60,280 nt of DNA from Oceanospirillaceae bacterium. Lineage in GTDB: Bacteria > Pseudomonadota > Gammaproteobacteria > Pseudomonadales > Balneatricaceae. Below, piece by piece: positions 35,995-52,154 of this stretch. The position numbers and the translations under genes are program-made. The stretch spans positions 1 through 60,280 of the forward strand of contig JABSQZ010000011.1 of assembly GCA_013215505.1 (NCBI GenBank). The letters are read 5' to 3'. How positions within the stretch are numbered: position 1 is the stretch's first letter; each line of letters opens with the position of its first letter. The notes beneath the pieces are model-generated. The model saw nothing but the letters and a program-made list of their open reading frames with translations, ran no database searches and had not been told where the DNA came from.

Positions 35995-36879
35995 TTATGC
36001 AACTGCTAAATTATTTTCCGGGCAATGCACAATTTCAAATGCATCCGGAGTCGAAAGTAGCTTTCTTACCAGCTGGTTATTCATAAAGTGGCCGGTTTTG
36101 TAGCCAACAAACTCGCCAATCATATTCATGCCAAGCAAGTAGATATCGCCGACAGCATCCAGCACTTTATGTTTTGAAAACTCATCTTCAAATCTCAAAC
36201 CATCACCATTGAGGATATTTTTCTCATCGACAACGATGGCATTTTCCATGCTGCCACCGCGGGCTAAATTGTTGGCTCTCAAGTACTCTATATCACTCAT
36301 AAAGCCAAAAGTTCTGGCTCTGCTGACTTGTTTGATGAAATTTTCACTGGATAACTCCAGCTCACACTTCATGTTTTTTCCCATAAATGCCGGGTGATCA
36401 AAATCAATTTCAACAGATAATTTACAACCTTGATAAGGCTTAAAAGTGGCTTTTTTGCCCTCGTGCACAAAACTGACTTCGCGGACAATCTTGATATACT
36501 TTTTCGGGCTGTGCTGTTGTTTAATGCCTGCAGCTTTCAGTAAGAAAATAAAGGGAGCGGCTGAGCCATCCATAATAGGTACTTCTTCGGCATTCAGTTC
36601 AACGATTGCATTGTCTATGCCCATTGCAGCGAAAGCCGACATCAGATGTTCAATTGTCGCAACTTTAATGTCGTCTTTAAAAATATTTGTCGACAACACT
36701 GTCTCTTTAACCAGAAAGGCATCTGCCGGTATCTCTACGACGGGATCCAAATCTACCCGTCGAAATACAATACCGCTATCAACAGCTGCGGGGCGCAAGT
36801 TAAGGTAGACCTTAGCACCGGAGTGAATGCCTAATCCGGTCGCTCTGATACTGCTTTTTAGTGTTGTTTGCTTGATCAT
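35995..36879 (-). CDS. lpxC: LpxC, UDP-3-O-acyl-GlcNAc deacetylase
   Basis: Zinc deacetylase that commits to lipid A synthesis (294 residues). Zinc ligands are visible in TIEHLMSA (H78) and in [10 protein letters not shown] (His and Asp, about 235-245), and a further conserved His in [13 protein letters not shown] near 262. [11 protein letters not shown] near 95-105 is also conserved. It follows ftsZ, the usual dcw order, and ends in its own terminator. Lipid A shows that the cell is a true Gram-negative. Confidence 0.96.
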
Positions 36880-36997: not shown

Positions 36998-38176
36998 CTA
37001 TTCACTTCGTCTACGTAAAAAAGTGGGTACATCAAACATATCTTCAGTTTTAGTCTTTGCCTTGGGAACGGGTGCAGCTTTACCATCTAATAATGCTTGC
37101 TGTTGTTTACGCCGCAATACTGTAGGTAACTCTATCTGATCCATGTTCGGTGTATAGCTTTTCGCCACCGGCTTCTTCACTGCAACTGTTTTCTCAGTAA
37201 GCGCTTCCACCTGCGGTTGCTTTTTTTCAAAACCTGTTGCCACTACTGTCACTTTTAAGTCGTCGACAAGCTCTGTATCTATGACAGTACCTATGACAAT
37301 AGTTGCATCATTGGAAGCATATTTTTCAATAATATTACCCACTTCACTAAATTCACCTAAAGTAAGGTCCAAACCTGCAGTAATGTTCACCAAGATGCCA
37401 CTGGCGCCTTTTAGATCAACGTTTTCTAATAGAGGGCTGTTGATAGCTCCCTCTGCTGCCACCGAAGCCCTATCTTCACCACGCGCTTTATCAGAGCCCA
37501 TCATCGCCATACCCATCTCTGACATCACCGTCCGCACGTCGGCGAAATCGACATTTATCATCCCCGGGCAAGTAATTAATTCAGCAATTCCACGCACCGC
37601 TCCTAACAATACATCATTAGCTGCAGCAAATGCTTTAATCAAACTGGTACTGCGCCCAAGTACTTTCATCAGTTTTTCATTGGGAATAATGATCAGTGAA
37701 TCAACTTGTTCACGCAGCTCTTGCAGGCCTTTTTCTGCCAGCAACATACGTTTACGTCCCTCAAATGGAAACGGCGTTGTCACTACTGCTACGGTCAGAA
37801 TCCCCATACCTTTAGCGACTTCAGCGACAATAGGTGCAGCACCTGTACCTGTTCCTCCGCCCATCCCCGCGGTAATGAAAATCATGTCGGAACCGGCGAT
37901 TGCCTCGCCTATGGCATCGCGATCTTCAATCGCTGCGGCCCTGCCGATCTCCGGGTCAGCTCCGGCACCCAAACCTTTTGTCGTCTCTCGCCCCAATTGG
38001 ATAGTTTTATGGGCTTGCACACTACTCAATGCCTGGGCGTCTGTATTGGCGCAAATAAACTCCACCGCATTTAAATCTGCAACTAACATATGGGCAACGG
38101 CATTACCGCCACCGCCTCCCACACCTACTACTTTTATTACTGCACCGGGCATATCATCATCTTGTAATTCAAACAT
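36998..38176 (-). CDS. ftsZ: Cell division tubulin FtsZ
   Basis: Forms the Z ring (392 residues). It has the GTP-binding loop [13 protein letters not shown] near 105-117, the T7 loop [11 protein letters not shown] near 207-217, and a variable linker from about 318. The C-terminal peptide [10 protein letters not shown] (381-390), the docking site for FtsA/ZipA in relatives, is intact. A second similar motif, [10 protein letters not shown], lies at 348-357. A strong AGGAGG box precedes the ATG. The upstream neighbour is ftsQ, not ftsA. Confidence 0.97.
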
Positions 38177-38291
38177 AATAACCTCCTACCAGATTACTGC
38201 GTTATAGCGACGGGCATTGAAATATCGAAAAACTCTCTGCCAGTCTAATCTTTTCTGAAAAGCGCTCACTTCGACAACAGCGCCTCACTGT

Positions 38292-39155
38292 CTAATCTAC
38301 TTGTACCTTGCTTATTGGTGCTCGCCATTTAACAGCGACACCGTTGCTATAGCGGACATCAACACTCTTAATTTGTGCACTATTTTGATACAAGTGTCCT
38401 TTGTAAAGCTGTAAAAATCTTCTTAATCTGGCGAGTACCTGCTCTCGCCCTAACTCAACTTCAATACGGTTATCTAATAACAGCGTCCAGGCTCCACGCG
38501 CCTGTAGAGTCAGACCTAACATATATGTTTCGCCACCTTTGAAAAACTGACTCAAAGTATGGTATTGATCCATTACTCTGGCAGTCTCCGTTGAAGGTCC
38601 ATTTAACAGCGGCAAAAAGCCCAGCTGTACCGCGTGTTCGGGGATAAATACATCCCCCTGGTGGTTCAACAATCCCTTCTGCCCCCATTTAGCCACGGGT
38701 ACTTGTTCCTCTACCGTCACTTTGATCGCAGGGGGCCACTGCCGCTTAATGGCTGCACTATTCACCCAGGGATCTTCAAGCGCCAGCTGTTGAAGCTCGT
38801 TTATATCAATCGACAACAGCGAGCCGTTCTGCCTGGAACTTCGTGGGATAGCTGCCAACTTATCCAGAAGCTGTTCAGGTTTTAAATACTGGGTATTCCC
38901 AGTGACACTCAATTGTTCAATTGGTTTATCCAATACTTGCCAAAGCGCCATTGCAGCGTTGTACATCAGGCCACAAAATAGTGCGAATGCGGTCAAAATC
39001 ATCGCCGGTCGCACATACCAATCGGACAGCTTACTCTCTGTAAGAGCACTCTCAGCTTGCTGCTCCGTTGCATCTTTTTGCGCTGCACTAACCCTGCCAG
39101 GCTTCTCACCACCGGCTGGCGACTGTGCTATATCTTGTTTACGCCAATGCAACAT
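38292..39155 (-). CDS. ftsQ: Division protein FtsQ
   Basis: Bitopic divisome protein (287 residues) linking early and late division proteins. It has a long cytoplasmic N-terminus (about 49 residues against about 24 in E. coli), one membrane helix (about 50-70), the POTRA domain (IEQLSVTGNTQYLKPEQL from about 79) and the FtsQ beta domain with WPPAIKVTVEEQVPVAKWG near 140. The 115 bp between its stop and ftsZ hold no gene, so ftsA is not in its normal place. Only 47 bp separate it from murC, with no ddlB. Confidence 0.93.
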   Translation of the reverse strand: MLHWRKQDIAQSPAGGEKPGRVSAAQKDATEQQAESALTESKLSDWYVRPAMILTAFALFCGLMYNAAMALWQVLDKPIEQLSVTGNTQYLKPEQLLDKLAAIPRSSRQNGSLLSIDINELQQLALEDPWVNSAAIKRQWPPAIKVTVEEQVPVAKWGQKGLLNHQGDVFIPEHAVQLGFLPLLNGPSTETARVMDQYHTLSQFFKGGETYMLGLTLQARGAWTLLLDNRIEVELGREQVLARLRRFLQLYKGHLYQNSAQIKSVDVRYSNGVAVKWRAPISKVQVD

Positions 39156-39202
39156 AACTGCACTGCCTGTATAACCTGATTAACCGAGATGCCAGTCCCA
39201 TA

Positions 39203-51698: not shown

Positions 51699-52154
51699 TC
51701 AGAGAGAGAGTGATTGTAGATCTACTGGTAATACAGCGGCTTCATCAGTTACCTGCAGATAATCGTCTCTGGTCTGATTCCACAACTCTTCACTCCATAT
51801 TTCAAATTTCTTGCCCTGGCCTAACAATACGATTTTTTTACCTAGTTTGGCGTATTCCCTCAGCGGAGCACTGAGCAACAAACGTCCATTGCCGTCCATT
51901 TCAATATCCGTTGCGTGCCCTATTAACAGCCGCTGTATTCTACGGGCATTGGGGTCAAAGCTAGGCAATGCCTCTATTTTTTCTTGAATGATTTCCCATT
52001 CATGTATTGGATAAAGTAATAAACAGCGGGATTCTGTATCAATTGTCGCGACCATTTGTCCGGCACAATGCACACTCAACTGCTCTCGATATCGAGAGGG
52101 AATCGCCATTCTACCTTTAGCATCCATATTAATTGGATTTACGCCGCGAAACAT
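51699..52154 (-). CDS. mraZ: MraZ transcriptional regulator of the dcw cluster
   Basis: The 151-residue protein has two AbrB-like swapped-hairpin repeats: INMDAKGRMAIPSRYREQL near 7-25 and IEMDGNGRLLLSAPLREYAK near 79-98. In E. coli MraZ binds direct TGGG repeats upstream of its own gene and represses the cluster. The same kind of operator is present here (52196-52220). The start has only a weak ribosome-binding site. Confidence 0.95.
   Translation of the reverse strand: MFRGVNPINMDAKGRMAIPSRYREQLSVHCAGQMVATIDTESRCLLLYPIHEWEIIQEKIEALPSFDPNARRIQRLLIGHATDIEMDGNGRLLLSAPLREYAKLGKKIVLLGQGKKFEIWSEELWNQTRDDYLQVTDEAAVLPVDLQSLSL

Follow-up and report, generated by a model that had tools for sequence, protein, structure and literature searches.

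The window, as we call the whole stretch of DNA analysed (60,280 nucleotides of a marine bacterium), carries a dcw cluster on the minus strand that extends from mraZ (51699-52154) to lpxC (35995-36879), the downstream border of the cluster. In this cluster ftsQ (38292-39155, minus strand; 287 amino acids) and ftsZ (36998-38176, minus strand; 392 amino acids) are separated by an intergenic gap of 115 bp (38177-38291, minus strand), the place of ftsA in relatives. The initial annotation had described the gap as lacking ftsA, and any reading frame beyond the ribosome-binding site of ftsZ, and both observations held: an AGGAGG site precedes the ATG of ftsZ, and no remnant of ftsA was detectable in 13 ftsQ-ftsZ gaps, seven from genomes of g1, the genus of the window, and six from the genus g4. 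The best matches to ftsA in these gaps were 12-mers with an E value of 0.53 (blastn) and a match on the wrong strand with an E value of 0.050 (tblastn). In the genome of the window and six other g1 genomes ftsQ is joined to ftsZ by 82-121 bp, and since the same short junction recurs in those six, it is not an artefact of assembly.

The cluster is not otherwise of textbook order, as had been stated, because ddlB is also absent from between murC and ftsQ, where 47 bp remain (39156-39202, minus strand). This absence was seen in 7/7 genomes of g1 that were read, and ddlB is kept in g4. Nearly all relatives read have a frame of about 310-340 amino acids between murC and ftsQ, that is, at the ddlB position; it was identified as Ddl by profile in two of them, G017 and G009. 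A Ddl gene of the window genome sits off the cluster (G000:C34:41725-42765). Promoter-like sites between 36880 and 39300 numbered 4 against 3.7 expected, and are uninformative.

FtsA, ZipA and two FtsZ proteins in the genome

A profile search located a complete ftsA on another contig (G000:C10:126952-128061; TIGR01174, E 8.2e-155). Its product, of 432 amino acids, scored 515.7 bits against a cut-off of 175.85 and has the SHS2 and FtsA domains (PF02491, PF14450) of a full-length FtsA; the C-terminal end, NVIHRFKTWLSGNF, has an amphipathic look as judged by eye alone. A second full-length ftsZ begins 197 bp behind this ftsA, outside the window and invisible from the window alone. The second FtsZ scored 429.3 bits with TIGR00065 (cut-off 295.2) and has a canonical C-terminal peptide, ending in FLDIPAFLRRQAD. 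The dcw FtsZ, which is without an ftsA of its own, scored 424.0 bits with the same model and cut-off; its Tubulin GTPase and FtsZ_C domains (PF00091, PF12327) are complete, the match spans the full length, and the domains still mark the protein as an FtsZ. The GGGTGTG and NVDFADV stretches are identical in the two proteins.

The search for membrane anchors, which used FtsA and ZipA profiles, also returned a single copy of zipA (L244:4355-7084, minus strand), coding for 909 amino acids and assigned to ZipA by PF04354 (E 1.6e-40) and TIGR02205 (136.9 bits, cut-off 119.65). The genome thus has one ftsA, two ftsZ and one zipA. Both profile searches had been suggested in the initial annotation, and they make its proposal that another anchor stands in for FtsA unnecessary, a normal FtsA and a ZipA being in the genome. 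The set resembles that of E. coli in FtsA, in ZipA and in a second FtsZ whose tail, LDIPAFLRRQAD, is of the ordinary gammaproteobacterial kind; E. coli has one FtsZ, whereas two are found here. The ZipA of g1 is very long: in the five genomes read it has 870-1033 amino acids, compared with 471 in Neptunomonas G017 and 543 in G009 of g4. ZipA was not found by profile search in G003. CTP-like peptides in the long ZipA linker were considered and dropped, being unconserved within g1. A search of plasmids for FtsZ gave distant ftsZ records, one at 60-80% identity and 114 lower, which were not used.

Copy number and gene order in the family

We surveyed 89 genomes from 16 genera of the family, which goes by the name Nitrincolaceae in its records. 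The genus g1 includes the Osedax symbionts Rs1 (ASZJ, G004) and Rs2 (ASZI, G006; MABF, G003) as well as MAGs; G002 and G005 are labelled Nitrincolaceae. Among the other genera are g4 (Marinobacterium sp. xm-d-530), g9 (Marinobacterium arenosum), g11 (Nitrincola), g12 (Neptunomonas), g13 (Motiliproteus), g15 (Amphritea) and g16 (Neptuniibacter). In 57 of the 89 genomes there were two full ftsA together with two or more ftsZ matches; 15 had one ftsA and two ftsZ (six in g1, six in g4 and three in g9), and 11 had a single ftsA-ftsZ pair (eight in g2, plus g6, g10 and g14). In six genomes (G001, G055, G056, G068, G078 and G096) ftsA and ftsZ could not be read, since these genes are interrupted or absent, in most cases where a contig ends. 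All 72 readable genomes of the duplicated clade had two ftsZ matches, a count that includes the second ftsZ of G057, absent among the matches listed, and sets aside third matches in G042, G088 and G089; two ftsA were found in 57/72.

Across the order, ftsZ was counted at E 1e-60 in 215 genomes, nine of them from the family. The 206 outside the family had one match in 200 cases, two matches in two and none in four. Within this sample, duplication of ftsA-ftsZ is confined to the family. The two genomes with two ftsZ matches, G036 and G275, belong to other families of the order, and the matches of G036 are low-scoring and may be pieces of one gene. Those with no match at this threshold were G181, G225, G288 and G295, the first two from one genus (g87).

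We read the gene order of 61 of the 89 genomes; the duplicated clade accounts for 53 of these, and in G001, G056 and G068 only the dcw side was covered. The comparison of dcw loci with the nearest relatives, proposed in the initial annotation, revealed the order ftsQ-ftsA-ftsZ in 35/35 two-pair genomes read, and ftsQ followed directly by ftsZ in g1 (7/7) and g4 (6/6). Three g9 genomes have the dcw ftsA and a second ftsZ without ftsA; G053, also of g9, has both ftsA genes. Among 80 named dcw loci, some from outside the family, ftsA lies behind ftsQ in 65 and is missing there in 10 (six of g1, four of g4), and five loci stop soon after ftsQ. In G001, a g1 MAG, the dcw ftsZ (L044:3837-5011, minus strand) is split in two frames, which may be real or an assembly error; a profile search did not find the second ftsA-ftsZ locus of this genome.

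In 41/50 second loci, a gene for a small membrane protein lies upstream of the pair, frequently accompanied by rmuC or a YdbH-like gene. The membrane protein gene was unseen in 2/5 stretches of g5, 1/3 of g7, 3/4 of g12 and 2/3 of g13, and in one short g4 contig. In two genomes of g2, the small membrane protein gene is grouped with rmuC and an HTH-cupin gene, and ftsA-ftsZ are absent there; this trio precedes the second pair in G044 of g13. The arrangement in g2 is probably the site as it was before insertion of the second pair. The small membrane protein gene lies near an HTH-cupin gene in g14 and was found alone in g6; none of the second-locus neighbour genes was found in g10. The sequences compared show that an ancestor of most genera of the family acquired, by duplication, an additional ftsA-ftsZ pair at another location.

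Histories, tails and rates of the copies

A tree of six dcw proteins served as the species tree. It places g2, g6, g10 and g14 outside and g13 first among the rest, with g1 beside g12 and g4 beside g5. Since two-pair genera separate g1 and g4 in this tree, the dcw ftsA was lost twice, once in each genus; the second-locus ftsA was lost once, in part of g9. Trees of the two proteins were built from FtsZ of 331-479 and FtsA of 381-519 amino acids scoring above 150 bits (117 and 103 rows, respectively). These limits excluded the FtsZ of G001, G056 and G068 as well as the second FtsZ of G065, and likewise the third FtsZ-like frames of G042 and G089. In the FtsZ trees the dcw and second copies form two clades, but they are mixed in g13 and g15. 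In the FtsA tree, the copies cluster by genus or genome in many genera. In a set of 15 two-pair genomes, chosen after the first trees and omitting g13 and g15, the second FtsZs formed one clade with a support of 97 and one change of locus; for the second FtsAs a single clade was rejected (p-AU 0.0001), with 11 changes of locus.

Within genomes, the two FtsA copies are more alike than the two FtsZ copies in 35/35 comparisons by protein and 33/35 by DNA. In G017 (g12), the two loci share 98.0% identity in ftsA and 72.4% in ftsZ, and the likeness falls at the ends of ftsA. The ftsA copies are thus homogenised by gene conversion beside diverging ftsZ genes. Slow evolution alone was considered as the cause of the FtsA likeness, and the clade test speaks against it. 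The FtsA copies look interchangeable, being homogenised where both exist and lost from either locus in three lineages, and the two FtsZs are old paralogues that have both been retained.

The C-terminal peptide of the dcw FtsZ of the window (codons 37001-37036, minus strand) is altered from the canonical DIPAFLRRQAD. The initial annotation had called this tail intact, which is right for the core; the alanine is replaced by threonine and the QAD end by RSE, as against alanine and QAD in 18/18 single-pair relatives. The alanine before F (in DIPAF) is found in all 18 single-pair and all 49 second FtsZs, and threonine takes its place in 46/50 dcw FtsZs (45/47 outside g13 and 1/3 within it). The QAD end is present in none of the 12 dcw FtsZs of g1 and g4, in 35/38 other dcw FtsZs and in 49/49 second FtsZs. 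The dcw tail of g1 ends in xSE (6/6), the split gene of G001 in NE, and the dcw tail of g4 stops at RR (6/6). The orphaned second FtsZs of g9 retain QAD (2/2 in the tree set), so that a changed tail is not a constant sequel of the loss of ftsA.

By our own residue count, the site of the alanine-to-threonine change corresponds to residue 376 of E. coli FtsZ. The altered residues fall in the E. coli stretch 375-378/380-383, overlapping the ClpXP site. According to the available parts of the respective papers, alanine at 374, 377 and 378 disrupts ZipA binding (PMC8669495) and changes at 375-378 impair the function of FtsZ (PMC3983244). FtsZ lacking 380-383 is partly functional and degraded more slowly by ClpXP, and GFP-FtsZ with this deletion forms normal rings in cells that are not filamentous (PMC3983244). 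Given the normal rings of that fusion, anchoring may be little affected when just the tail end is lost.

Rates were expressed as the mean tree distance to the same reference genomes, ftsA-loser over sister, with a control built from the six dcw proteins. For g1 over g12, the ratio was 1.84 for the orphan dcw FtsZ, 1.46 for the second FtsZ and 1.31 for the control, the partner FtsZ of g1 thus being somewhat fast as well. The corresponding values for g4 over g5 were 2.31, 1.19 and 1.15. For the g9 losers over G053, a comparison of two losers with one sister genome, they were 1.69 for the orphan second FtsZ, 1.22 for the dcw FtsZ and 1.22 for the control. In each of the three cases, the FtsZ deprived of its ftsA evolves fastest.

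Two FtsZ proteins and a proposed shared FtsA

The window locus represents one state among several in which a duplicated ftsA-ftsZ module occurs naturally. The explanation that we favour, and hold as a whole to be reasonably probable, is that an old duplication of the pair was followed in g1 by loss of the dcw ftsA, and that two FtsZs now work in one ring with a shared FtsA and ZipA. The loss left a single ftsA, next to the second ftsZ, and two ftsZ genes that differ from each other; presumably it was tolerated because FtsA is supplied in trans, and with the dcw copy lost, one ftsA would have to serve two different FtsZ proteins. Both FtsZs may co-polymerise in one Z ring, with the single FtsA and ZipA as its anchors. 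Most of the FtsA-dependent anchorage would fall to the second FtsZ and its canonical tail, and the dcw FtsZ, with its altered tail, would lean more on co-assembly or ZipA, and could tune filament dynamics or turnover.

An assembly collapse between ftsQ and ftsZ that conceals an ftsA, which the initial annotation had allowed for, would fit with the near-identical ftsA copies that break assemblies in the family (in G055, G056, G068, G078 and G096 the genes run into contig edges or are absent), and with the dcw loci that stop soon after ftsQ (5/80). It was not borne out: independent assemblies place the short ftsQ-ftsZ gap on one contig in the window, in six other g1 genomes and in six of g4, leaving this reading practically no probability. 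The related suggestion that ftsA had moved was right in that a normal FtsA is encoded elsewhere, on C10, as a single gene off the cluster. A mere relocation with nothing duplicated is nevertheless refuted, and we regard it as extremely improbable, since a second ftsZ accompanies the ftsA of C10 and relatives have both pairs, with the extra one in a common neighbourhood; only the dcw ftsA of an ancestral two-pair state was lost, and both ftsZ were kept.

Two further readings accept the duplication and concern the role of the dcw FtsZ. It could be a redundant spare on its way out, under weak selection without ftsA, its fast evolution and altered tail being signs of decay. That it is the fastest FtsZ in g1 and g4, that its tail end is altered in 12/12 genomes of these genera and that its gene is split in G001 would agree with this. 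However, the split was seen in a single MAG, where it may reflect faulty assembly, the gene is one open frame in the 12/12 other genomes of g1 and g4, and two ftsZ matches are kept in 72/72 readable genomes of the duplicated clade. In the window, moreover, the domains of the protein score well over the cut-off, and its GGGTGTG and NVDFADV stretches match the second copy letter for letter. We find decay unlikely. About equally doubtful is that the dcw FtsZ builds a separate structure whose tether is ZipA or some further anchor instead of FtsA. Both the altered tail and the very long ZipA of g1 (870-1033 amino acids, against 471 in G017 and 543 in G009) would suit such an arrangement, but the tail retains I/V, F and L at the positions used for ZipA binding in E. 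coli (available part of PMC8669495; own residue count), and these positions fall in a stretch that FtsA also uses.

The favoured reading, two FtsZs in one ring, has parallels in known systems, here compared from the accessible portions of the papers. Chloroplasts of Arabidopsis have the paralogues FtsZ1 and FtsZ2, of which one keeps the C-terminal anchor peptide and the other has lost it and is thought to join the ring by co-assembly (PMC8142252). There, the peptide of FtsZ1 is lost outright and FtsA is absent; here, the peptide is altered but not lost, and the two FtsZs would co-assemble. Archaea such as Haloferax likewise have two FtsZs and one membrane anchor, but the duplication is an ancient archaeal one and the anchor is SepF, not FtsA. 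Pull-downs in Haloferax support binding of SepF to FtsZ2 and not FtsZ1 (PMC8187382), whereas binding to both is expected in PMC8178401, given their similar tails. Several bacterial phyla also have more than one FtsZ (Atribacteria, Synergistetes, Aquificae and others), for which the accessible portion of PMC8178401 mentions no joint ftsA-ftsZ duplication, ftsA conversion or loss of ftsA at either locus. Among the matches listed from the open-licence literature (titles and the starts of abstracts), none reports the duplication described here. As to what a ring of two FtsZs would lead one to look for, two old retained paralogues are present (72/72 genomes; clade support of 97 in the 15-genome set), and the anchor peptide of one is altered, not lost. 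Possibly, and somewhat short of an even chance in our estimation, the family independently evolved a labour split like that of chloroplasts and archaea, with a canonical-tail FtsZ and a less anchored one, g1 and g4 having gone furthest and a shared FtsA serving both. On this reading, the repeated disappearance of ftsA from one locus or the other, with no loss of ftsZ seen, would single out FtsA as exchangeable and the two FtsZs as distinct in role.

The question why chloroplasts and many archaea have two FtsZs has mostly been posed in systems remote from E. coli. In the present case, a gammaproteobacterial family with FtsA and ZipA offers a natural test of the reason for keeping two tubulins for division: it has two FtsZs of common origin, natural variants with either one or two copies of ftsA (missing, where single, from one locus or the other) and outlying genera that have just one ftsA-ftsZ pair. 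These variants make it testable what the second FtsZ adds and whether FtsA must be encoded together with FtsZ, and several members are named and cultured (Marinobacterium, Neptunomonas, Amphritea, Nitrincola and Neptuniibacter).

The near-identical ftsA copies also carry a warning, as they break short-read assemblies and can mimic missing division genes; the broken assemblies in the family follow from gene conversion keeping the copies so alike. In G056 and G068, loss of ftsA and ftsZ was considered and set aside in favour of a probable repeat break, because only a piece of the ftsZ end is present, at a contig start. An FtsZ-FtsA chimera in G089 is probably a scaffold artefact, since the frame contains Ns. 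In G042 (Nitrincola), a third, divergent FtsZ-like protein of 552 amino acids is encoded at L158:3548-5206 (plus strand), with a weak N-terminal half, a retained NVDFADL stretch and a long C-terminal extension.
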